Below, one piece after another: positions 41,626-52,137 of a DNA stretch of 64,000 nucleotides. How positions within the stretch are numbered: position 1 is the first letter of the stretch; every line of letters starts with the position of its first letter. Made by a program: the position numbers and the translations under genes. Source of the DNA: Ruania alkalisoli (GTDB lineage: Bacteria > Actinomycetota > Actinomycetes > Actinomycetales > Beutenbergiaceae); NCBI RefSeq assembly GCF_014960965.1, contig NZ_CP063169.1, forward strand, positions 157,581 to 221,580, written 5' to 3'. Below the pieces are notes generated by a model. That model searched no databases. It was given only the letters and a program-made list of their open reading frames with translations, and had not been told where the DNA came from.

Positions 41626-41892
41626 ATGGCCACACGTACCGCCACGATCGCCTCACCCGTGGGACTGCACGCGCGACCTGCCGCCGTCTTCACGCGCGCC
41701 GTCGAGGACACCGGGCTGCCGGTCCGGATATCGAAAGCGGGGTCAGTCCCGCAGGACGCCACGAGCATTCTGGGCGTCATGAGCCTCGGTGTCGAACACG
41801 GCGACGAGGTCACCCTCCACGCCGACGGGCCGGAAGCGGACTCCGTACTGGCGGACCTGGCTTCCCTGCTCTCCCGCGACCTGACGGCCTAG
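41626..41892 (+). CDS. ptsH: Phosphocarrier protein HPr
   Basis: 88 residues, the standard HPr size. The phosphorylated histidine is His15 in GLHARPA and the regulatory serine is Ser47 in TSILGVMSLGV. ATG 41626 has GAAGGA at 41615-41620, and a TAGATT -10-like element lies at 41587-41592. It transfers phosphate from enzyme I to sugar-specific PTS permeases; no other PTS gene is in the window. Confidence 0.96.
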   Translation: MATRTATIASPVGLHARPAAVFTRAVEDTGLPVRISKAGSVPQDATSILGVMSLGVEHGDEVTLHADGPEADSVLADLASLLSRDLTA

Positions 41893-41896
41893 CGGC

Positions 41897-42448
41897 GTGG
41901 CGCGCGGCGAAGAGGTGGATCGCAGGATCCACGAGGCTGCGCTGGAGCTGCTGCGCTCCCGGGGCCCGGCGGCTGTGACTGTGGAGGCCGTCGCCGCCGA
42001 GTCCGGGGTGGCGCGCACGACGATCTACCGGCGTCACCGGGACCGGGACGAGGTGCTGGAGTCCGCGCTGAAGGAGATCGCGGCGACCAATCTCCTCACG
42101 CCGACCGAGGACGTCTGGGCCGATATGCGGCAGGCGATCGAGCTGCTGATCGCGACCTTCCAGCAGAACCAGGGCGTCGGGGTGTTCCTCGGTCTGATCA
42201 CGGGGGGCGACCCCGAGCTGGTCGAGCTCATCCGCGCCAAGCTGCTCCGCCCTCGTATCGAGCTCGGGATCATGCGGATGCGAGCAGGTGTGGCGACCGG
42301 TCAGATCAGGCCGGATGCCGATGTGGAGACCGCCGCCGACCTGGTGCTCGGGGCCGTGGCGGCACGTTTCGCGCACGCCGGCACGTTCCCACAGGAGTGG
42401 ATCGACTCCGTGGTGGACCTGGTCAGGAGCGCGCTCGAGGTGCGTTGA
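41897..42448 (+). CDS. TetR-family transcriptional regulator
   Basis: 183 residues from GTG 41897. The HTH is AAVTVEAVAAESGVARTTIY followed by RRHRDRDEVLE, and the ligand domain is all-helical and of TetR_C type. It lies only four bases after HPr but in front of the lipid cluster. A perfect 10-5-10 palindrome at 42591-42615, between this gene and the first diiron gene, is its likely operator. It is probably a repressor of the ether-lipid-like operon responding to an acyl or alkyl compound. Confidence 0.92.
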   Translation: MARGEEVDRRIHEAALELLRSRGPAAVTVEAVAAESGVARTTIYRRHRDRDEVLESALKEIAATNLLTPTEDVWADMRQAIELLIATFQQNQGVGVFLGLITGGDPELVELIRAKLLRPRIELGIMRMRAGVATGQIRPDADVETAADLVLGAVAARFAHAGTFPQEWIDSVVDLVRSALEVR

Positions 42449-42590
42449 TGGTGATGTCCGACGGCGTAGCTCACGTCGTGAGATCCGCCTCATCGCCGGT
42501 GGTCATGACCCATCCGGATCCGGCCGGGCTGCGAATCTGTTCCGAGCGCTGGTACGCGTAGGGCGAACCGCGTAGAGTCGGGCCAGGGTC

Positions 42591-42615
42591 GAACGCTACA
42601 GTCTGTGTAGCGTTC
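42591..42615. promoter_or_regulatory. Probable TetR operator of the lipid cluster
   Basis: GAACGCTACA-gtctg-TGTAGCGTTC is a perfect inverted repeat of 10-base arms with a 5-base centre, a typical TetR site. TAGAGT (42573-42578) is a -10 candidate, so the operator would cover the transcription start. The first structural gene begins at 42653. Confidence 0.72.
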
Positions 42616-42652
42616 CAGTGGCGCATCGCATACGAACTCCGAACGAGGAACC

Positions 42653-43447
42653 ATGGCCTTCAACATCGACCGCTTCACCCGGGACTCCGTCCGGGTGAAC
42701 TGGGAAGACCTCGACCTCGACGTCTTCCGCGAGGACCCACTGCCGGCGGAGTCGCTGCGCACGCTGCGCTACATGTGCGATGTGGAGTATCACACCGTCT
42801 GCTACCTGCGGGACATGCTCGTGACCCCCTCCCGCGGTGAGGGCGAGGTCAACGCGTTCATGACGATGTGGAACCGTGAGGAGTTCTGGCACGGTGAGGC
42901 ACTGGCGCACGTGCTGGACCTGCACGGCATCACGGTCTCCTACGACGAGCTGAAGGCCAAGCGGGTCAAGCTCGGGTGGCGCGACCGGATCGCCCCGGTG
43001 AAGCAGGCGATGCTCTCCAACATCATCGGTAAGGACTTCGTCGCAGTTCACATGATCTGGGGAGCGGTCAACGAATGGTCGGCGTCGGCCGCGTACAAGC
43101 GGCTGGCGGTGCTCGAGGGGCACCCGGCACTGGGGGTGCTGCTGAAGCGGATCGCGGCCCAGGAGGCGCGCCACGTGGCCTTCTACGCCACCCAGGCTCG
43201 TCAGCGGCTCGAGGGCAACCGGAAGGCGCAGAAGCTGGCGAGACTGGCGTTGTCGACCGCGTGGCGGCCCGTCGGTTCCGGGATCGCCTCAGACGATGAG
43301 GTCACACATGTGATGGGTCACCTGTTCGGCGGTGCGGACGGGCGCAAGGAGATCCGCGCCATCGATGCCCACATCGCGAAGCTCCCGGGGATGGAGGGTC
43401 TGACGATCGTGTCGGACTCTCTCGATGCCCGCGGGATCGCGGCCTAG
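42653..43447 (+). CDS. Ferritin-like diiron protein with complete metal site
   Basis: 264 residues. A four-helix-bundle ligand set is visible: Glu45 (DVEYHT), Glu77 and His80 in EEFWHGE, Glu141 (AVNEWSAS), and Glu171 and His174 in QEARHVAFY. This is the E, ExxH, E, ExxH pattern of diiron oxidases such as acyl-ACP desaturases and ribonucleotide reductase R2. There are no membrane helices. Start ATG 42653 lies behind the TetR operator. The next gene is a paralogue that has lost most ligands. The downstream genes make fatty alcohol and ether-lipid precursors, so it is a candidate desaturase or oxygenase acting on acyl or alkyl chains. The exact reaction is unknown. Confidence 0.85.
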   Translation: MAFNIDRFTRDSVRVNWEDLDLDVFREDPLPAESLRTLRYMCDVEYHTVCYLRDMLVTPSRGEGEVNAFMTMWNREEFWHGEALAHVLDLHGITVSYDELKAKRVKLGWRDRIAPVKQAMLSNIIGKDFVAVHMIWGAVNEWSASAAYKRLAVLEGHPALGVLLKRIAAQEARHVAFYATQARQRLEGNRKAQKLARLALSTAWRPVGSGIASDDEVTHVMGHLFGGADGRKEIRAIDAHIAKLPGMEGLTIVSDSLDARGIAA

Positions 43448-43467
43448 CTGGTGAGGAGCCCCACGGA

Positions 43468-44301
43468 GTGAGTGCGTCATCCCCCACCTTCGATGTGCGC
43501 GCCTACGTGCGCGAGCCGGTCGACCTGCGTCCGGACCAGCTGGACCTGGAGGCCATGGCGAACCTGCCTGCTCTGGTGGCCGGCGCCGTCGGCCATCTGT
43601 GGAGCGTGGAACGGACGATCCTGGACCTGATGCGGGACCTGCTGGTCACGCCCACGCACGCTGAGGCACGGGTGACGGCGTTCCTGGGGACTTGGGCGTA
43701 CGAGCAGTTCTGGATCACCGAATCGCTGGCCGCGGTGCTCAGGCTCGGGGAGGAACCCACGGACCCGCCTGACTCCGGCCTGGGCGCGCTGCGACGGATC
43801 TGGGACGAGCGAGTACGGCCGACGGTGGACGCGGTCCGGACGAATCTCCTCGGTAGTGATGTGGTGGCCGCCCACATGGTCACCGGCTGGCTGAACACGG
43901 CCGTGGTTGCGCTCGCCTACGAACGACTGGGCGCGATCGCCCCGCGGTTGCGGCCCTTGACGGCGGCCGTCGCGCCGATCAAGTCACGGCACCTGGCGTT
44001 CTACGAGGACGAGGCACGTGCTCGGTTGAGCGGGTCCGCCGGTGCCCTCCGGCTCGCGCGACGTACCGTCACCCGATGGCAGTGGCCCGGGGTGCGCTAT
44101 TGCGGGCATGATGCGGCAGCTGGCCCCGTGCGGACGTTGCTGGCCGACCCTGCCGCGCGGCCCGGTGTGCGGGCCGTCGACGCAGGCGTCGCGGCGCTGA
44201 CTGGGCTGGGGGATACGGCGCCGCTGCGGGTGGCACTGGGCGGATTCGTGAAGCGTTCACCCGTGGGTGGCACCGCAAGGGCCTCGACCCGCGTACAGTA
44301 A
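43468..44301 (+). CDS. Ferritin-like paralogue lacking most diiron ligands
   Basis: 277 residues from GTG 43468. It aligns along its length with the preceding protein (RDMLVTPS/RDLLVTPT, FMTMW/FLGTW, HVAFYATQAR/HLAFYEDEAR). The ligand positions read Glu48 (kept), Gln80 instead of Glu, Ile83 instead of His, Thr144 instead of Glu, Lys172 instead of Glu, and His175 (kept). It therefore cannot bind a normal diiron centre. The ligand-less, conserved fold next to an intact copy recalls the alpha/beta subunits of soluble methane and toluene monooxygenases, suggesting a structural or regulatory partner. It ends six bases before the reductase gene. Confidence 0.85.
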   Translation: MSASSPTFDVRAYVREPVDLRPDQLDLEAMANLPALVAGAVGHLWSVERTILDLMRDLLVTPTHAEARVTAFLGTWAYEQFWITESLAAVLRLGEEPTDPPDSGLGALRRIWDERVRPTVDAVRTNLLGSDVVAAHMVTGWLNTAVVALAYERLGAIAPRLRPLTAAVAPIKSRHLAFYEDEARARLSGSAGALRLARRTVTRWQWPGVRYCGHDAAAGPVRTLLADPAARPGVRAVDAGVAALTGLGDTAPLRVALGGFVKRSPVGGTARASTRVQ

Positions 44302-44306
44302 CCGGG

Positions 44307-46616
44307 GTGTCGGACCCTCTGAAGAACGCCCACATCCTGGTGACCGGTGCCACCGGATTCGTCGGTCAAGCCGTCGTGGAGAAGCTGCTCGCGACCCACC
44401 CGACGACGCGGATCACGCTGCTCGTGCGCCCGCGTGGTGCCCTGGCTGCCGAGGACCGGGTGCGCAAGCTGCTGAAGAAGCCCGTCTTCGGGCCGTGGCG
44501 TGAGCGCATAGGTGCTGACGCCGCCGAGGCCCAGTTGGCGGAGCGGATCACCGTCCTGGCCGGCGACCTGGGTGATGTGCCGCCGCTTCCCACGGACCTG
44601 ACCCACGTCGTGCACTCCGCCTCCACGGTCTCCTTCGACCTGCCGATCGACGAGGCCTTCGCCGCCAATGTCGGTGGGCCGGTGAGTCTGTACGAAGCGC
44701 TCGAAGCGACCGGTGCGGATCCGCACGTGGTGCACGTCTCCACGTGCTATGTGGCGGGTCTGCGCAAGGGGCTGGCCGAGGAACGTAGCCTCGACCATGA
44801 CGTGGACCGTCGCGTCGAGACCACGCGCGCGCTCCGGGCCCGCGAGTCCGCCGAGGCTGCCTCGCGCCGGCCGCAGGTGCTCGACAAGATCGTCGCCAAG
44901 GCTCGCGCCACCCATCGTCGCGCCGGGGCTCAGGCCGTGGCACAGGCAGCGGAGGAGGCGCGCCGGGCGTGGGTGAACGATCAGCTCGTCACCGCGGGCC
45001 GTACCCGCGCCACCTCACTCGGGTGGCCGGACGTGTACACCTTCACCAAAGCACTCGGTGAGCGGGTCGCCGAGGATCTGTGGGCCGGTGCCGGGCACCG
45101 CCTGTCGATCGTGCGCCCGACCATCATCGAGAGCTCGTTGCAGCACCCGTTCCCCGGCTGGATCGACGGGTTCAAGGTGGCCGACCCGCTGATCGCCGCC
45201 TACGGGCGCGGCATGCTGCCGGAGTTCCCAGCGCTCGCGGACTCCATCCTGGACGTCATCCCCGTCGACCACGTGGTGAACGCGATCCTCGCCGCGGCGG
45301 CGAGCCCGCCGGACGTCGCGGAGGAGCCTGACGAGACCACGGTGACGAGCGTGGATCCGCGGACCAGAGCCGCCTACTACCAGGTGGCCTCCGGCAGCCG
45401 GAACCCGCTGCGGTTCGGCACGATCCTGCGCCTGCTGCGGGAGTATTTCGAGCAGCACCCGCTCACTGGTGATGACGGGTCGTTCGTGCAGGTGCCGAAC
45501 TGGACCTTCCCGCACGGGCCGGCGGTGCAGCGGTCGCTGCGTCGCCGGGAGATGGCGGTCGATGTCGCGGACTCGCTGGTGGGCAAGTTGCCGCCGAACG
45601 ACACCACCCGCTCGTGGATCTCCTCGGTGTACAAGGCCAAGCGCGACCTCGGTACCCTGCGCAAGTTCACCGATCTGTACCAGGCGTACACGCAGACCGA
45701 GGTGGTCTTCGACGACACCAACACGCATGCCTTGCATGAGGCTGTCCCGGCGGAGCGGAGCGAGGAGCACGGCTTCGACGTGTCCGCGATCGACTGGACG
45801 TACTACATGAAGGAGGTGCACGTCCCGAAGGTGCCGGGGCTGATGCGCGCCCGTCGGCCGCACAGCAAGCCGAGCACGAGCGCGAAGAGCCTGCCGCAGC
45901 GTGAGGACGTGCTCGCCGTGTTCGACCTGCACGGCACGGTCGCGGCGGCGAGTCTGATCGAGCACTACGTGTGGGTCGAGCTCGCGGCCAAGGGCGCGGT
46001 GCCCGCACTTCGCGGGCTCGGCGGGATGGTCGCCTCCTCGGGTACCTACCTGCAGGCCGAGTGGCGCGACCGGGGCGACTTCATCCGCTCGTTCATGCGC
46101 CGGTACGCGGGGGTGGATGAAGCGGTGCTGCGCGAGGTGATCGCCACGAAAGTCACGCCGTCGCTGCGGGCGAGGCTGTTGTCGGAGGCTACGGAGCGGA
46201 TCGCGTTGCACCGCGCCGCCGGTCACCGGACGGTGCTGGTCAGCGGTCAGATCGACGTGTTCGTGGAACCGCTCGCTGACATGTTCGATGTGATCGTGGC
46301 CGGGCAGATGGAGAAGGACTCGGGCGGTCGCTGGACCGGTCACCTGGCGAGCTCGCCGCTCGTGGACGAGGCGCGCGCCTCGTGGCTGCGCCGGTACGCC
46401 CGCGAGGAGGGGATGGACCTGGCGGGCTCGTACGCCTACGGCGACACCTACGCCGACCGGCCCTGGCTGGAGGTGGCGGGGAAGCCGAACGTGGTCAACC
46501 CGGACGCCACCCTGTACCGCTATGCCCGTGAGAAGCGCTGGCCGGTCCACTCGTGGACCACGACGGCGGAAGGTAGGTTCTCGCCCGTCCTCCGTTCGCT
46601 GGGGTCGCGTCGATGA
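44307..46616 (+). CDS. Fatty acyl reductase (extended SDR) fused to an HAD-IB-like domain
   Basis: 769 residues. Residues ~8-500 form an extended SDR/thioester-reductase type domain: nucleotide motif HILVTGATGFVGQAVVEKLL, VVHSAS, HVSTCYVAG and the catalytic Tyr244/Lys248 in YTFTKALGERV. This is the fatty acyl-CoA/ACP reductase pattern, giving fatty alcohol. The C-terminal domain from about residue 535 is HAD-IB-like: AVFDLHGT (Asp540; the usual second Asp is His542), LVSGQ, EKDSGG and GDTYADRPWL. The altered motif I may weaken phosphatase activity. The stop overlaps the next start (ATGA). The start is GTG 44307. Confidence 0.88.
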   Translation: MSDPLKNAHILVTGATGFVGQAVVEKLLATHPTTRITLLVRPRGALAAEDRVRKLLKKPVFGPWRERIGADAAEAQLAERITVLAGDLGDVPPLPTDLTHVVHSASTVSFDLPIDEAFAANVGGPVSLYEALEATGADPHVVHVSTCYVAGLRKGLAEERSLDHDVDRRVETTRALRARESAEAASRRPQVLDKIVAKARATHRRAGAQAVAQAAEEARRAWVNDQLVTAGRTRATSLGWPDVYTFTKALGERVAEDLWAGAGHRLSIVRPTIIESSLQHPFPGWIDGFKVADPLIAAYGRGMLPEFPALADSILDVIPVDHVVNAILAAAASPPDVAEEPDETTVTSVDPRTRAAYYQVASGSRNPLRFGTILRLLREYFEQHPLTGDDGSFVQVPNWTFPHGPAVQRSLRRREMAVDVADSLVGKLPPNDTTRSWISSVYKAKRDLGTLRKFTDLYQAYTQTEVVFDDTNTHALHEAVPAERSEEHGFDVSAIDWTYYMKEVHVPKVPGLMRARRPHSKPSTSAKSLPQREDVLAVFDLHGTVAAASLIEHYVWVELAAKGAVPALRGLGGMVASSGTYLQAEWRDRGDFIRSFMRRYAGVDEAVLREVIATKVTPSLRARLLSEATERIALHRAAGHRTVLVSGQIDVFVEPLADMFDVIVAGQMEKDSGGRWTGHLASSPLVDEARASWLRRYAREEGMDLAGSYAYGDTYADRPWLEVAGKPNVVNPDATLYRYAREKRWPVHSWTTTAEGRFSPVLRSLGSRR

Positions 46617-47416
46617 GGGGCAGGTCTCACACCACCCCGGTACCGATCGCCGGGACTGCGATGGTGACAGGCGGGACCTCCGGGATCGGCTTGGCTTTCG
46701 CGCGGGCACTGGCCGCACGTGGGTGCGACCTGGTGCTGGTGGCGCGGAACCGCCAGCGCCTGGATGCCACGGCCGAGGCGCTGCGCTCCGAGCACGGTGT
46801 GGCTGTGGAGACGCTTGTGGCCGACCTGGCCAGACGTGGGGACGTCGACGTCGTCGCCCGGCGTCTCGAGGACGCGGGCGCGCCGGTGGACATCCTGGTC
46901 AACAACGCCGGGATGGGCGTGCACACGCCGCTGACGTCCACCGAGATCGCGGTGCACGACGAGGCGATCGACGTGATGATCCGGGCGGTGCTCGTGCTCG
47001 GCGGGGCGGCGGCGCGGACGATGGAGCAGCGTGGGAGCGGCATCATCGTGAACGTGGCGTCGGTGGCCGGCCAGGTGGCGATGGGCTCCTACTCGGCGAT
47101 CAAGTCCTGGGTGGCGACGTACTCGGAGTCCCTCAGCCTCGACATGGAGGGCAGCGGGGTGCAGGTGATGACCCTGATGCCCGGGTGGGTGCGTACGGAG
47201 TTCCACGAACGCGCGAAGATCCGGACGAGTTCGATCCCGGGCGCGCTGTGGTTGGACGCGGACGATCTGGTGACCGACTGCCTGGCCGACCTGGAACGGG
47301 GGCGGACCAGGTCGATACCATCCAAGCGGTTCCGGGTGATCTCGTGGCTCGCGCAGCGCCTGCCGCGCGCCGTGGTCCGGAGAGCGACGGCACGGATCAA
47401 GAAGGGGCGCCGATGA
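46613..47416 (+). CDS. Short-chain dehydrogenase/reductase
   Basis: 267 residues of a classical SDR: AMVTGGTSGIGLAFARALA, NNAGMG, a catalytic Ser-Tyr-Lys set in NVASVAG and YSAIK. The C-terminal part is extended and basic (RRATARIKKGRR), as in membrane-associated members. It overlaps both neighbours by four bases. By position in an ether-lipid-type cluster it is a candidate 1-acyl- or 1-alkyl-dihydroxyacetone-phosphate reductase, the step done by an SDR in animals. Another fatty-acid-related reduction remains possible. Confidence 0.9.
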   Translation: MRGRSHTTPVPIAGTAMVTGGTSGIGLAFARALAARGCDLVLVARNRQRLDATAEALRSEHGVAVETLVADLARRGDVDVVARRLEDAGAPVDILVNNAGMGVHTPLTSTEIAVHDEAIDVMIRAVLVLGGAAARTMEQRGSGIIVNVASVAGQVAMGSYSAIKSWVATYSESLSLDMEGSGVQVMTLMPGWVRTEFHERAKIRTSSIPGALWLDADDLVTDCLADLERGRTRSIPSKRFRVISWLAQRLPRAVVRRATARIKKGRR

Positions 47417-48174
47417 GCACGAGGGACGAGCGCAAGCGCACCTCGCGCTACCACTCTGCCGTGCACCGGTGGGCCCGGTACATCGCGCAGCGGTTCATCT
47501 TGCGCCCGATCGTGTTCTCGAACGTGCGGGTGACCGTCGAGGGTGAGCGACATGTGGCGGACCTCGACGGTCCCTTCATCGTCGTGGCCAACCACTCCAG
47601 CCACCTGGACGCCCCGCTGTGCATCACGGCGCTGCCTTACTCGGTGACCAAGCACGTCGCGACGGCGGTGGCGGCCGACTACTTCTACCGCTCGACCTGG
47701 CGCAGTTCGCTGACGTCGTTGTTCTTCAACTCCTACCCGGTCGAACGCGGCAAGGCGCGTGGGAAGTCGTCGGGACTGTCGGTCTCGCTGTTGCGGCAGG
47801 GGGTGCCGTTGCTGATCTTCCCGGAGGGAACGCGTTCGCGCACCGGTGAGATGGCCGACTTCACGCCCGGTGCGGCAGCCCTGGGCCGGGCGTTGCGGGT
47901 GCCAATCGTGCCGGTGGCACTGGTGGGTGCTCACGATGCGATGCCGCCGGGCACGTTCTGGCCCAAGACCGGCCGGATGCCGGTGAAGGTGCTGATCGGT
48001 AAGCCGGTGCGGGTGCGCCCCCGGGAGGCGCTTGCTGACCTGAACGCACGACTGACCGCACGGGTGCGGGCGATGCACACGATGCAGACCTCGTACGTGC
48101 TGGTCACCGATGACGACCGTCCGTCCAGTTCCGGTGAGTCGGAGCTGCCGGACGCACAGGAAGGGATCTCATGA
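47413..48174 (+). CDS. PlsC-type 1-acyl-glycerol-3-phosphate/DHAP acyltransferase
   Basis: 253 residues. The catalytic HX4D is NHSSHLD (His61, Asp66); FPEGTRS, followed by VPIVPVALVG, is the acceptor-binding block. It lacks long membrane helices and has a polar 20-residue tail. Start ATG 47413 overlaps the SDR stop by four bases. PlsC-family enzymes acylate glycerol phosphate backbones; next to an alkyl-DHAP synthase gene it may acylate dihydroxyacetone phosphate (sn-1) or the later alkyl-glycerol phosphate (sn-2). Confidence 0.92.
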   Translation: MSTRDERKRTSRYHSAVHRWARYIAQRFILRPIVFSNVRVTVEGERHVADLDGPFIVVANHSSHLDAPLCITALPYSVTKHVATAVAADYFYRSTWRSSLTSLFFNSYPVERGKARGKSSGLSVSLLRQGVPLLIFPEGTRSRTGEMADFTPGAAALGRALRVPIVPVALVGAHDAMPPGTFWPKTGRMPVKVLIGKPVRVRPREALADLNARLTARVRAMHTMQTSYVLVTDDDRPSSSGESELPDAQEGIS

Positions 48175-49853
48175 GCGACGTCGTGCACCAGAAGTGGTGG
48201 GGCTGGGGTGTGGAGGGTGTGGCCTTCAACCCCGACAACAAGCCGGGCTTCGCCCCGTTCGTCCGCAAGGTGATCGGGATCGATGTGACCGGGCCCGCTG
48301 GGAGCCCGCCCTCGTTCGACGAGCTGGACGTTCCGGCCTCGCGCCTTCCGGACGAGCTCGGCGCCACGTTACGTCGGCTGGTGGGCGACCACCAGGTCAC
48401 CACGGACGACATGGATCGCGTGGTGCACACCTACGGCAAGGGCTTGCGTGATCTGGTGCGGGTGCGTGCCGGTGACCTGCCGCGGGTACCGGATGTGATC
48501 GTGTACCCGGCGAACGAGGACGAGGTCCGCGCGGTCGTCGACGCTGTGGTGGGTGCCGACGCCGTGCTCATCCCCTTCGGTGGTGGGTCCAACATCTCCG
48601 GGTCGCTGACCCCGCAGGCGGACGAGGACCGCACCGTGGTCTCGCTCGACCTGGGGCGGTTGAACCGGGTGCTGGAGATCGACTCCGATGCCGGGCTGGC
48701 ACGGGTGCAGGCCGGTGGCCTGGGTCCGGACCTGGAGGAGCAGCTCACTGAGCGCGGCTGGACGATGGGGCACCAGCCGGACTCGTTCAAGCACTCCACT
48801 CTCGGCGGTTGGATCGCGACCCGGTCCTCGGGTATGCAGTCCGACAAGTACGGCGATATTGCCGAGATCGTGCGCGGGCTGACCGCGGTGCTTCCCGGCA
48901 AGGTCCTCACGCTGCGGCCGCTGCCGAGCACGTCCACCGGTCCGAGCGTGCGGGAGATGATCCTCGGTTCGGAGGGCCGGCTCGGTGTGATCACCGAGGC
49001 GTGGGTGCATGTGCACCGGCTGCCGGAGAACCGCGAGGTCATCGCCTACCTCTTCCCGAACTGGGCTGCGGGGATCGCCGCGATGCGCGACATCTCGGTC
49101 TCGGATGCGACGCCGTCGATCACCCGCGTCTCGGACGCGAATGAGACGGCCTTCTCGCTGGCTACCCGCAAGGAGTCCAAGGGCCTGTCCTCCAAGGTGG
49201 GCGAGGGGCTGTTCGAGCTGCTCCGCCGCCGCGGATGGGACCTGGAGAAGGTCTGCATCTCCTACATCGGCTACGAGGGCGGTTCGGCGAAGGTCCGTGC
49301 CGACAAGTCCGAGGTCGGGAAGATCGTCGGCGAGCACGGCGGCATCAAGCTCGGCAAGGGCCCGGGCGCGATGTACGACCAGAAGAAGTTCGACACCCCG
49401 TACCTGCGGGACTTCCTGCTCGACCGCGGTGCGCTCGGCGATGTCTCCGAGACCGCGGCGCCGTGGTCACGCCTGGGTGAGGTCTACGTCTCCACCGTGC
49501 GAGCGGCGAAGAAGGCGTACGAGGAGGTGGGCGTGCAGGGGTTCATCATGTGCCACCTGTCGCACTCCTATCACTCGGGTGCATGCCTGTACTTCACGTT
49601 CGCCTTCCCGCCGCGCGAGGACACTCCGGAGCTGGAGCAGTACGACGTGGTGAAGTCGGCGATCCAGCAGTCGTTCATCGACCACGGAGGGACCCTTTCC
49701 CACCACCACGGGGTGGGCACCGACCACGCCCCGTGGATGGAGCAGGACATCTCCGAAGCCGGTGTGGACCTGATGGTGGGACTCCTCTCCTCGGCCGACC
49801 CGGGCCGCAACCTGAACCCGGGCACGCTGCTTCCGCCCGAGCGGGAGTGGTGA
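48171..49853 (+). CDS. FAD-binding oxidase of the alkyldihydroxyacetonephosphate synthase family
   Basis: 560 residues, comparable to AGPS without its peroxisomal targeting extension. The opening QKWWGWGVEGVAFNPDNKPG is characteristic. The FAD (PCMH) domain includes LIPFGGGSNISGSL, GHQPDSFKHSTLGGWIATRS and GSEGRLGVITEAW. The catalytic histidine block is LSHHHGVGTDHAPWM and the end is GRNLNPGTLLPP. The enzyme exchanges the acyl group of acyl-DHAP for a fatty alcohol, forming the ether bond. It is the last gene of four overlapping genes (ATGA at 48171-48174) and is followed by a large terminator hairpin. Confidence 0.93.
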   Translation: MSDVVHQKWWGWGVEGVAFNPDNKPGFAPFVRKVIGIDVTGPAGSPPSFDELDVPASRLPDELGATLRRLVGDHQVTTDDMDRVVHTYGKGLRDLVRVRAGDLPRVPDVIVYPANEDEVRAVVDAVVGADAVLIPFGGGSNISGSLTPQADEDRTVVSLDLGRLNRVLEIDSDAGLARVQAGGLGPDLEEQLTERGWTMGHQPDSFKHSTLGGWIATRSSGMQSDKYGDIAEIVRGLTAVLPGKVLTLRPLPSTSTGPSVREMILGSEGRLGVITEAWVHVHRLPENREVIAYLFPNWAAGIAAMRDISVSDATPSITRVSDANETAFSLATRKESKGLSSKVGEGLFELLRRRGWDLEKVCISYIGYEGGSAKVRADKSEVGKIVGEHGGIKLGKGPGAMYDQKKFDTPYLRDFLLDRGALGDVSETAAPWSRLGEVYVSTVRAAKKAYEEVGVQGFIMCHLSHSYHSGACLYFTFAFPPREDTPELEQYDVVKSAIQQSFIDHGGTLSHHHGVGTDHAPWMEQDISEAGVDLMVGLLSSADPGRNLNPGTLLPPEREW

Positions 49854-49867
49854 ACCACCTCCACCCG

Positions 49868-49926
49868 CGCGAACGCTGATGTGTTCGGCATCTGACGCAC
49901 AGATGCCGAACACATCAGCCTTCGCG
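49868..49926. terminator. Terminator hairpin of the ether-lipid cluster
   Basis: 27-base arms (49868-49894 and 49900-49926) pair with one mismatch around a five-base loop, starting 15 bases after the AGPS-like stop. It marks a clear boundary between the lipid cluster and the next operon. No T tract follows. Confidence 0.75.
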
Positions 49927-49975
49927 CAGTAGCGGGCCCTTGCCTCCTGGGTCTCGGTGCTCTTGACTGCGTGAT

Positions 49976-51313
49976 GTGACCTCACCGGACGTGGACCGCG
50001 ACCAGAAAGCTACCGCGCCCCCCACCCCACCCTGGCGCTACGCCGTCGGGATGTTCGGGACATCGATCCCGATCAACCTGATCAAGGGCTCGATGATCCT
50101 CTACTACGTGGACATCCTCGGCCTGGATGTGCGGGCGTACGGGGTGGTCATGGTGATCTACGCGATCATCGACGCCCTCGACAACCCGCTGCTCGGCTTC
50201 CTCTCGGACCGCACGCGCACCCGCTTCGGCCGCCGCCGGCCGTGGTTGCTCATCGGGGCGCCGCTACTGGCCGCGTGCATGATCGCGTTCTTCTCCGCAC
50301 CCACCTCGCTGGACGGGATGGGCCTGGTGCTGTGGTTCGCGGTGTTCGCCATCCTGTGCGAGGCCTTCGACTCGATGCTCAACGCCAACTACGGCGCCCT
50401 GCTGCCGGAACTGTTCCCGGCCGAGCGCCGCCGCGCGGTGGCAAACTCGATGCGCCAGGGATTCCAGCTGGTGGCACTGGTGATCTCCCTCGCCGTCACC
50501 CCGGTGCTGACCACGAGCGTGTTCGGCACCGAGACCACCACCGAGGGCTTCACCACCACCGCGATCATTTACGGCGCGATCGCCGTCGTCGTGATCGCCT
50601 TCATGGTCCTCTCGGTCCGGGAGAACCCGCGCTACTCCACCCGCGAGCGCCCTCGGTTCCTGCCGGCGATCGGTTCGGTGCTGCGCAACCCGCTGTTCTG
50701 GCAGGTGGGCCTGGTGGGTGCCTGCTACGGCATCGCGATGGCGCTGGTGCTCAGCGGTGTGCAGCTGTACGTGCGCTACAGCCTCGGCCTACCCGTGGCC
50801 AACGCGCTGTACCTGCAGGGCGCCGTGATCGGGGTGACGGCCCTCGCGCTGCTCGCCTGGACCCGGCTCGTCGCGCGGTTCGGGGCGCCGCGGATGTGGC
50901 GGATCGCGTTCCTTGTCCTCGCCGGCGGATTTGTCGCCCTGTTCTTCGCTACGGATCTACTCACCGGCATCCTCGCCGGGGTCGTGCTTGGCCTGGGATG
51001 GTCCGGCATGCTCGCCACCAACGACCTCATCGTCGCTCGCGTACTCGACGGCGACGCCGCCCGCCACGGTGAGCATCGCGAGGGCCTGTTCCTCTCCGCG
51101 TTCGGGTTCTTCGGCCGCCTCAACGGCGTGGTCACCGGGCTCGCGCTGACCTCGCTGGGCGTGTTCTTCGGCTACAACTCCGGCGACGATCCCGGCAGCG
51201 ACCCGGGCTTCGCGTTCCGCGTCTACCTCACCGTGTATCCGTTCGCGCTGACGGTGATCGGCGCCGTCGCCTCCCGCTTCGTGCGGCTCCCCGAGGCCGG
51301 TGCGCCGCGATGA
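49976..51313 (+). CDS. GPH-type glycoside/pentoside/hexuronide symporter (MFS)
   Basis: 445 residues with twelve membrane helices. YYVDILGLDVRAYGVVMVIY, DNPLLGFLSDRTRTRFGRRR and WLLIGAPLLA are the GPH signature in the first half. The start is GTG 49976 without an evident ribosome site. Such carriers import glycosides with Na+ or H+. The stop overlaps a ChbG/YdjC-like gene (ATGA), followed by a PHP hydrolase, so a three-gene operon for uptake and hydrolysis of a substituted sugar or related metabolite is likely. No local regulator is present. Confidence 0.9.
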   Translation: MTSPDVDRDQKATAPPTPPWRYAVGMFGTSIPINLIKGSMILYYVDILGLDVRAYGVVMVIYAIIDALDNPLLGFLSDRTRTRFGRRRPWLLIGAPLLAACMIAFFSAPTSLDGMGLVLWFAVFAILCEAFDSMLNANYGALLPELFPAERRRAVANSMRQGFQLVALVISLAVTPVLTTSVFGTETTTEGFTTTAIIYGAIAVVVIAFMVLSVRENPRYSTRERPRFLPAIGSVLRNPLFWQVGLVGACYGIAMALVLSGVQLYVRYSLGLPVANALYLQGAVIGVTALALLAWTRLVARFGAPRMWRIAFLVLAGGFVALFFATDLLTGILAGVVLGLGWSGMLATNDLIVARVLDGDAARHGEHREGLFLSAFGFFGRLNGVVTGLALTSLGVFFGYNSGDDPGSDPGFAFRVYLTVYPFALTVIGAVASRFVRLPEAGAPR

Positions 51314-52137
51314 GACGCCTGGTCCTCACCGCCGACGACCTGGGACGAGACGCGGCCACGACCGCGGAGATCGTCGCCCTTGCGCGCGAGGGACTGATCA
51401 CGGCCACCACGGTGATCCCTGTGGCGCCTGCCTCCGCCGAGGCAACCGAGCAGATCACGACGGCGCAGGTCGCCACCCGTGTCCACCTCACGTTGACGAG
51501 TGAGGCCAGCGAGACCAGCACGACGAGCGAGTTGGGCGTGGCTGCGTGGCGACCGCTCGCCGATGTCCCGAGCCTGGTTGAGGCCGACGGGAGCCTGACG
51601 ACCGATCCGTACCGGCTCGGTGCGCGCGGCAGGACCGAGCACGTGCTCACGGAGCTCGAGGCGCAGCTGGCGTGGACCCGCGCGCAGGGCCTTCACGTCA
51701 CGGCCGCCGATTCCCATGCCGGCACCCTCTACGGTCTGCACGGCCAGTCCTGGCTGGAGCCGGCACTGCGCTGGTGCGCCCGGCACGGCCTCGGCTTCCG
51801 GCTGCCGCGCGACCTCGCCCCCTACCTGGGTGGCCCGGCGCCAGAACCCCTGCGCTCCGCCCACGCGGCTGCCGTGGCCCTGGCCGACGAGCTCGGCGTG
51901 CCGATCCCGCAGACGATGATCACCAACGACCGCACGGCCGCCGAGTGGGGCGACTACGAGGCGTTCAGGCGCGGCATGCTCGCCCGGGTCGCCACCCTGG
52001 GGGAAGGCACCAGCGAACTGTTCCTCCACCCCTCGTCCGCTCCGGAGATCCGGGCGTGGGAGGCGCGGTTGCTGCGCGATCCTGCCCTGCGGGAGACCTT
52101 TCGTTCCGAAGGCATCACCCTCGTGGCAGGGTGGTGA
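51310..52137 (+). CDS. ChbG/HpnK (YdjC-like) carbohydrate deacetylase
   Basis: 275 residues. The metal-binding motifs are present: LTADDLGRDAATTAEI (Asp-Asp), VHLTLTSE with His, DSHAGTLYGLHG and ELFLHPSSAPE. ChbG-type enzymes remove N-acetyl groups from chito-oligosaccharides, and HpnK-type relatives act on hopanoid-linked sugars. The second motif reads HLTLTSE rather than the common HLNLT(x)G. It is coupled to the transporter upstream and to the PHP gene downstream. Confidence 0.88.
   Translation: MRRLVLTADDLGRDAATTAEIVALAREGLITATTVIPVAPASAEATEQITTAQVATRVHLTLTSEASETSTTSELGVAAWRPLADVPSLVEADGSLTTDPYRLGARGRTEHVLTELEAQLAWTRAQGLHVTAADSHAGTLYGLHGQSWLEPALRWCARHGLGFRLPRDLAPYLGGPAPEPLRSAHAAAVALADELGVPIPQTMITNDRTAAEWGDYEAFRRGMLARVATLGEGTSELFLHPSSAPEIRAWEARLLRDPALRETFRSEGITLVAGW

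Follow-up and report, generated by a model that had tools for sequence, protein, structure and literature searches.

A seven-gene cluster of Ruania alkalisoli may encode an aerobic pathway to ether lipids in which a soluble diiron protein pair forms the vinyl ether bond of plasmalogens. The cluster occupies positions 41897 to 49926 of a 64,000-nucleotide stretch of contig NZ_CP063169.1 (the whole stretch is called the window below; the host genome is 4.45 Mb). Its genes, all on the + strand, encode a TetR-family repressor, two ferritin-like proteins for which we coined the working labels FerA and FerB, a fatty acyl reductase with a HAD domain (FAR), a short-chain dehydrogenase/reductase (SDR), a PlsC-type acyltransferase (PlsC), and a homolog of alkylglycerone-phosphate, or alkyl-dihydroxyacetone phosphate (alkyl-DHAP), synthase (AGPS). 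Chances are about even that the reading holds as a whole, i.e., that the cluster specifies aerobic ether-lipid synthesis of the AGPS type controlled by TetR, with FerA/FerB as the vinyl-ether desaturase. An alkyl-ether operon is very likely, and FerA/FerB probably act on the ether-lipid chain; the assignment of vinyl-ether formation to FerA/FerB specifically falls slightly short of an even chance. The evidence that can be read from sequence comprises the protein families, the operon, the conservation of diiron ligands, the association of FerA with AGPS, and an operator shared between loci. The features are as follows.

41897 to 42448, + strand: TetR-family repressor (Pfam TetR_N, 3.7e-11, and TetR_C_11, 1.4e-16)
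42591 to 42615, no strand: putative operator, inverted repeat GAACGCTACA-N5-TGTAGCGTTC with perfect 10-bp arms
42653 to 43447, + strand: FerA, soluble ferritin-like diiron protein, a distant relative of acyl-acyl carrier protein (acyl-ACP) desaturases (ligands, AlphaFold2 model, Foldseek)
43468 to 44301, + strand: FerB, a FerA paralog with a degenerate diiron site (ligand loss, AlphaFold2 model, Foldseek)
44307 to 46616, + strand: fatty acyl reductase (NAD_binding_4 and Sterile-like) with a C-terminal HAD domain (Pfam, 7eoz match)
46613 to 47416, + strand: SDR oxidoreductase, candidate alkyl-DHAP reductase (Pfam adh_short, 4.5e-39, and PDB search; specificity inferred)
47413 to 48174, + strand: PlsC-type acyltransferase (Pfam PF01553, 1.2e-21; 5kym, 3.3e-12)
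48171 to 49853, + strand: AGPS, alkylglycerone-phosphate (alkyl-DHAP) synthase homolog (PDB bit scores)
49867 to 49927, no strand: hairpin 3′ of the operon, probably a terminator, lacking a T run (−52.5 kcal/mol, z −11.75)

An earlier reading of the window made from the letters alone (the sequence-only reading) had proposed a coupled operon of FAR, SDR, PlsC, and AGPS. The four genes are indeed joined by 4-bp overlaps at the FAR/SDR, SDR/PlsC, and PlsC/AGPS junctions, and FAR starts after a gap of 5 bp from the end of FerB. The assignment of the last gene, too, proved correct. In a search against solved structures, the 560–amino acid protein matched Dictyostelium AGPS (2uuu) with 380 bits over residues 66 to 553 and guinea-pig AGPS (4bby) with 309 bits, whereas the best hydroxyacid dehydrogenase, a D-lactate dehydrogenase, scored 76 bits; the protein was thus rejected as a hydroxyacid dehydrogenase. 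A scan with an AGPS profile yielded 351 loci, of which the best 80 are referred to below as the named loci; among these, the closest AGPS came from Ruania rhizosphaerae (98% identity), and that of R. albidiflava is 84% identical. Residues that align with active-site positions of AGPS (H of GHQPDS, R of SITR, R of YLRD, and HHH), whose roles we take to be those in the guinea-pig enzyme, are kept in all 81 proteins compared (the window and the 80 named loci). The Tyr of HSYHSG, which presumably corresponds in number and role to guinea-pig Tyr578, is present in the window and kept in 69 of the 81. The AGPS call is firm at the level of sequence, and alkyl-DHAP synthase activity is predicted.

The remaining enzymes of the operon are assigned with different degrees of precision. 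FAR matches the fatty acyl-CoA (coenzyme A) reductase 7eoz (7e-46) over residues 6 to 510, after which the HAD domain follows (approximately residues 537 to 722). The Pfam matches of the fusion are 5.3e-47 and 3.6e-30, and a Sterile match lies just below the cutoff. Its NAD_binding_4 domain carries TGxxGFxG and YxxxK motifs, presumably with their usual roles in such reductases, so that the earlier FAR assignment stands, with the HAD fusion added to it. The HAD part appears from sequence to be a retained but altered phosphatase-like domain: The first Asp of its DxD motif is kept, while His, Glu, or Gln takes the place of the second in every one of the 60 FARs compared (those of 81 loci where the gene picker found one); two more distant FARs carry DxD. 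The sequence of SDR marks it as a short-chain dehydrogenase of no particular type. PlsC, in which NHxxxxD and FPEGTR are directly readable (motifs that we assume to play their usual roles), resembles 1-acylglycerol-3-phosphate (AGP) acyltransferases rather than GNPAT in particular, and matches the PlsC structure 5kym. The sequence-only reading had likened these two proteins to alkyl-DHAP reductase and GNPAT. The families were right, while the particular steps do not follow from such sequences; the operon suggests that SDR would be the alkyl-DHAP reductase and PlsC the DHAP acyltransferase.

FerA is a predicted diiron protein with a six-ligand site in a helical bundle. Its best Pfam match, FA_desaturase_2 (PF03405), is below the cutoff (0.0032; 16.8 bits, with a cutoff of 22.7), and FerB matched no Pfam family; 22 of 28 FerA relatives match FA_desaturase_2 at 0.01 or better. 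When a 28-member FerA profile was compared with the PDB, a designed helix bundle came first, and Mycobacterium tuberculosis DesA2 was the best natural protein (4.3e-05), followed by R2lox (0.0013). The AlphaFold2 model of FerA is all-helical, with a mean confidence (predicted local distance difference test, pLDDT) of 88.9. Its nearest Foldseek matches are plant acyl-ACP desaturases [E 0.0012, template modeling (TM) score 0.60, probability 1.00], with ribonucleotide reductase R2 and R2lox close behind; identity is 12 to 18% among the 50 alignments listed. All 28 family members share the ligands E45, E77, H80, E141, E171, and H174, and all six are present in 53 of 57 rows scored as FerA, the other four being FerB rows misplaced by the cutoff. 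FerB has the same fold class (pLDDT 84.8) with weaker matches, the top one being an acyl-ACP desaturase (E 0.013), yet in the window it lacks four of the six ligands. Among 46 FerB rows, 43 have Lys, Arg, or Gln at position 77, 44 have Ile or Leu at position 80, and 44 have Lys or Arg at position 171; Glu is retained at position 141 in 33, but the window has Thr there. Since the ligands are lost, FerB was rejected as an enzyme, and the pair would have one intact diiron site instead of the two expected from the earlier description of two soluble diiron proteins, which holds for FerA only. Judged by sequence, FerB is probably a conserved noncatalytic partner, or pseudo-subunit, of FerA, with which it would form a complex.

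We then consider how tightly the diiron genes are linked to the ether-lipid genes. In the window's own family, AGPS of the window's kind occurs in 17 of 24 genomes. FAR, SDR, PlsC, and AGPS stand together in 16 of these 17, the remaining one being cut by contig ends, and TetR-FerA-FerB precede FAR in 13; all seven members without AGPS also lack FerA. Beyond the family, the sequence retrieved around AGPS contains FerA together with FerB in 39 of the 80 named loci, and never one of them alone. As the automated gene picker misses or mislabels some genes, key cases were checked by tblastn. This showed that in Subtercola, Agreia, Frigoribacterium, Herbiconiux, Labedella, one Phytoactinopolyspora, and one Streptomyces, FerA-FAR-FerB are on one strand and SDR-PlsC-AGPS on the opposite one. 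Streptomyces locus L208 and Phytoactinopolyspora locus L224 have two further gene orders, in which FerA, FAR, and FerB are still together. A whole-genome search of 35 AGPS genomes, chosen by us from the named loci, detected FerA in 23, with a FerB-like second match in 21. Over 40 loci, FerA and AGPS diverge in step (r = 0.90 between their pairwise identities).

In a survey of 396 genomes of the order, FerA was found in 55, the AGPS subfamily in 74, and both in 47; by genus, AGPS occurs in 12 of 15 genera with FerA versus 6 of 94 others (all raw counts, kin included). The AGPS cutoff of E 1e-190 used here was chosen after a gap between 52 and 39% identity had been seen; at a looser cutoff of E 1e-60, 110 of 396 genomes are positive. 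The presence of the AGPS subfamily in 47 of 55 FerA genomes bears out the suggestion that the diiron genes belong with the ether-lipid genes.

Several loci depart from this arrangement. Loci L082 and L143 carry FerB-FerA pairs without the window's AGPS subfamily, in the former case between peptidyl-tRNA hydrolase and RNase H genes; the genome of the latter (G321), which becomes positive at the looser cutoff, has an AGPS-like gene (36%) elsewhere. These pairs seem to need another substrate or route. FerA neighborhoods away from AGPS shared no ether-lipid link among ten neighbors scanned (nine plus one AGPS check); these neighbors included one AMP-binding enzyme and one dihydroxyacetone kinase. 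In Mycobacterium loci L184 and L187, the AGPS subfamily and SDR are followed by a FAR-like gene of 28 to 30% identity (L187 also has a FAR of 53%), and no FerA match was found in either. In Subtercola loci L192, L195, L197, L201, L203, and L220, a second PlsC-type acyltransferase lies between FerA and FAR (5 of 5 loci checked). A domain scan of L192 revealed a LarA-type hydroxyacid isomerase also between FerA and FAR, and a diacylglycerol-kinase-like gene adjoining FerA.

Dimethylacetals (DMAs) are the signature of plasmalogens. In Subtercola, the DMAs reported amount to 22% of peak area in S. vilae, 27% in S. frigoramans, 29% in S. boreus, and 21% in S. lobariae (PMC5945732; the sums are ours, with traces left out). 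The chains of these four species are almost wholly saturated, with a trace of a-15:1 in one (PMC5945732). The sequenced S. vilae is DB165, the strain whose lipids were measured, and FerA, FAR, FerB, SDR, PlsC, and AGPS are all present in it. The six genes are also found in S. lobariae and in three S. boreus genomes, whose strains are not named as the measured one. While the word “aerobic” is absent from the S. vilae paper (PMC5945732), S. boreus and S. frigoramans are called aerobic taxa in an excerpt of another paper. Frigoribacterium adelgis, grown aerobically, contains anteiso-15:0 aldehyde/DMA together with 17% “C14:0 2OH”; both are also reported in F. faeni and not in two other Frigoribacterium species (PMC12823222). 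In Kineococcus rubinsiae, an automatically assigned “C14:0 2OH” peak was identified by gas chromatography–mass spectrometry as anteiso-15:0 DMA (PMC7472656). Since automatic systems can report anteiso-15:0 DMA as C14:0 2-OH, plasmalogens may be underreported in aerobic actinobacteria. DMAs in aerobic Subtercola were reported in 2000, as noted in both PMC5945732 and PMC7472656; the later of these two papers still describes their presence as at first sight surprising, and the excerpts of neither name a gene. The cluster thus offers a concrete six-gene candidate for the DMAs of aerobic actinobacteria, in a strain with lipids already measured. The sequence-only reading had raised the formation of a vinyl ether as a possibility. 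The Subtercola and Frigoribacterium DMAs and the full DB165 cluster speak for it; the step itself is plausible, not proven.

The pathway that we infer, including each reaction, the reaction order, and the desaturation site, would run as follows. FAR would form a fatty alcohol by reduction of a fatty acyl thioester, and PlsC would acylate DHAP. AGPS, on its flavin adenine dinucleotide (FAD), would exchange the acyl for the alkyl chain, and SDR would reduce alkyl-DHAP to alkyl-glycerol-3-phosphate. Last, FerA, with its pseudo-subunit FerB and O2, would introduce a C1′-C2′ double bond into the alkyl chain, yielding the vinyl ether of a plasmalogen. The role of FerA/FerB in this last step is suggested by co-occurrence.

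The early steps have close parallels. The animal peroxisomal pathway (FAR1, GNPAT, AGPS, and alkyl-DHAP reductase) has the same set of early-step enzymes by homology, and its last step, by PEDS1/TMEM189, is O2-dependent, as proposed here; however, PEDS1 is membrane-bound and belongs to a different family, while the candidate here is soluble and ferritin-like, and the genes here form one cluster. Myxococcus xanthus, also aerobic, has adjacent AGPS, FAR, and acyltransferase functions in MXAN_1676-1674 (AGPS, a FAR-GNPAT fusion, and a member of the NAD-dependent epimerase family), and its elb cluster encodes a HAD protein, ElbB, reminiscent of the HAD domain here (PMC9131029). In contrast to the cluster described here, the domains are fused differently, the double bond is introduced by the membrane protein CarF instead of a soluble diiron pair, and no such pair or TetR operator is described in the excerpt (PMC9131029). 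Disruption of the M. xanthus AGPS gene reduced ether lipids only slightly (PMC9131029). A wide range of bacterial phyla, among them the Actinobacteria, has been listed as having AGPS homologs (PMC11868695). Since this Myxococcus route with AGPS and FAR homologs and CarF was already described, an aerobic bacterial route as such is not new; the sequence-only reading had considered an oxygen-dependent route of this composition notable. The anaerobic PlsA/PlsR system leads to the same product class, vinyl ether lipids, as proposed here; unlike the route here, its reductases convert diacyl lipids, and DHAP is not a precursor (PMC9702350).

Soluble acyl-ACP desaturases (plant stearoyl-ACP desaturase and M. 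tuberculosis DesA1/DesA2) resemble FerA in fold and in ligand pattern, which we take to be E, ExxH, E, ExxH. FerA differs from them in its low identity (the 12 to 18% of the alignments listed), its sub-cutoff Pfam match, and its pairing with a degenerate paralog. Among the papers listed by searches of an open-access library, no title or abstract opening described a ferritin-like protein in ether-lipid synthesis. The alkyl-ether part of the cluster is of a known kind; its distinguishing features are the FerA/FerB pair, the HAD domain fused to FAR, and TetR control. Slightly more tentatively than the desaturase assignment itself, we propose that FerA/FerB represent a third, independently evolved vinyl-ether route, a soluble O2-dependent heteromeric diiron desaturase unrelated to PEDS1/CarF and PlsA/PlsR, which would explain the DMAs of Subtercola and Frigoribacterium. 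Should FerA/FerB prove to be the vinyl-ether enzyme, three unrelated chemistries would have given rise to plasmalogens, and plasmalogen production could draw on a soluble enzyme.

A number of observations weigh against the proposed pathway. In the window's family, FerA/FerB are on another contig in three genomes, and one genome with AGPS lacks them. FerA is missing in 12 of the 35 AGPS genomes searched in full and in 27 of 74 AGPS genomes of the order; in two genomes of Jiangella, a search matched FerA but no FerB. In a sample of 396 genomes of the phylum, the presence of distant FerA relatives (at most 46% identical) was not coupled to that of AGPS: FerA was detected in 23 and AGPS in 34, the overlap being the window's genome only. 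The other-contig pairs and the phylum sample had cast FerA/FerB as a chance neighbor, a view reversed by the scan of named loci and the order survey. Twelve of the 81 AGPS proteins, including all eight of Subtercola, have Met, Glu, or Ala where the others have the Tyr of HSYHSG. No Foldseek match of FerA reached E 0.001 or better. On the chemical side, Agreia pratensis carries all six genes, while for DMA in Agreia one table reports no detection and the running text at most 4% (PMC5945732). The literature searched contained no lipid data for Ruania itself. The search for DMA status also took in Occultella, Herbiconiux (the excerpt mentions only major fatty acids), and Labedella; the term “DMA” is absent from the text of the Actinotalea paper. 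Last, other enzymes, such as another desaturase or a P450, might supply the double bond: The family searches covered HGD-D (PF06050) and PF10520 (CarF/PEDS1). HGD-D, presumably the family of PlsA, matched in 0 of 1 and 0 of 20 genomes, DB165 included, with two control genomes positive. PF10520 likewise matched 0 of 1 and 0 of 20, DB165 included; because it matched no control genome either, this does not show that CarF is absent.

The best-surviving alternative is that the operon makes saturated alkyl ethers only, and that FerA/FerB desaturate or oxidize an acyl chain (anteiso-15:1 being one possible product) or else the fatty alcohol, either before or after the ether is formed, and not the ether position. 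The nearest structural relatives of FerA presumably have acyl-ACP as their substrate, and acyl-ACP desaturases are not known to act on ether lipids, which counts against our proposal. FerA, with or without FerB, also occurs without the AGPS subfamily in 8 of 55 genomes of the order. K. rubinsiae, for which the comparison concerns chemistry only, contains anteiso-15:1 w10c alongside anteiso-15:0 DMA (PMC7472656). In Subtercola, however, DMAs make up 21 to 29%, and unsaturated chains are nearly lacking (the a-15:1 trace in one of four species; PMC5945732). With saturated branched chains and so large a DMA share, an AGPS-tied desaturase relative is better explained by a vinyl ether than by midchain unsaturation, and we regard the alternative as rather unlikely. 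Less probable still is that FerA/FerB are an unrelated diiron oxidase (acting on fatty aldehydes, alkanes, or hydroxy lipids, or cleaving ethers), with the vinyl ether coming from another enzyme. In fold, FerA also resembles R2lox and ribonucleotide reductase R2, the families searched assign FerA/FerB no function, and the PF10520 search leaves room for CarF; the rank of DesA2 in the profile search and the weak FA_desaturase_2 matches of 22 of 28 family members point instead to a desaturase. A third alternative takes the AGPS-like protein for a common FAD-dependent hydroxyacid dehydrogenase in a cluster for wax esters or another neutral lipid, as its placement among GlcD-like proteins by generic Pfam and NCBIfam models might suggest; this is very improbable given its bit scores, the retained HHH and other AGPS residues, and the FAR, PlsC, and SDR context.

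The desaturase proposal includes control by TetR, and a TetR operator before FerA had been suspected from the letters. The perfect inverted repeat at 42591 to 42615 has one match in the window versus 0.01 expected, and upstream of FerA in related genomes, the repeat keeps arms of at least 8 bp in 9 of the 12 regions compared. Its core, CGCTAC-N7-GTAGCG, recurs exactly in 12 of the 80 named loci, always at the promoter end of the cluster and in two of the gene orders: six loci of Ruania/Occultella (59 to 90 bp before the FerA match) and six of Microbacteriaceae (at the FerB/SDR junction). Three one-mismatch matches were found elsewhere. Since the shuffle control, which covered one-mismatch matching, gave 13 such matches in 120 shuffled stretches, only exact matches were counted. 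A TetR homolog lies within ~3.5 kb after AGPS in all six exact-core Microbacteriaceae; S. vilae and Labedella likewise have one within that distance after AGPS, yet they lack the exact core. The operator suspected earlier is thus well founded as a sequence element, to which TetR would bind to control the cluster.

The flanks of the cluster contain several minor features. The hairpin at 49867 to 49927, at whose foot (49926) the cluster span ends, has a perfect inner stem of 20 pairs; a scan for T-run terminators found none. Directly 5′ of TetR, a small open reading frame (41626 to 41892) is HPr phosphocarrier-like, as judged by a GLHARPAA motif that we assume to be diagnostic, and a similar frame precedes TetR in some relatives (cluster c22). 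Downstream, at 49976 to 52137, Pfam identified genes for a GPH-type sugar transporter and a YdjC-family deacetylase. Because both lie 3′ of AGPS in only three of seven other genomes of the genus, they are probably unrelated to the operon.

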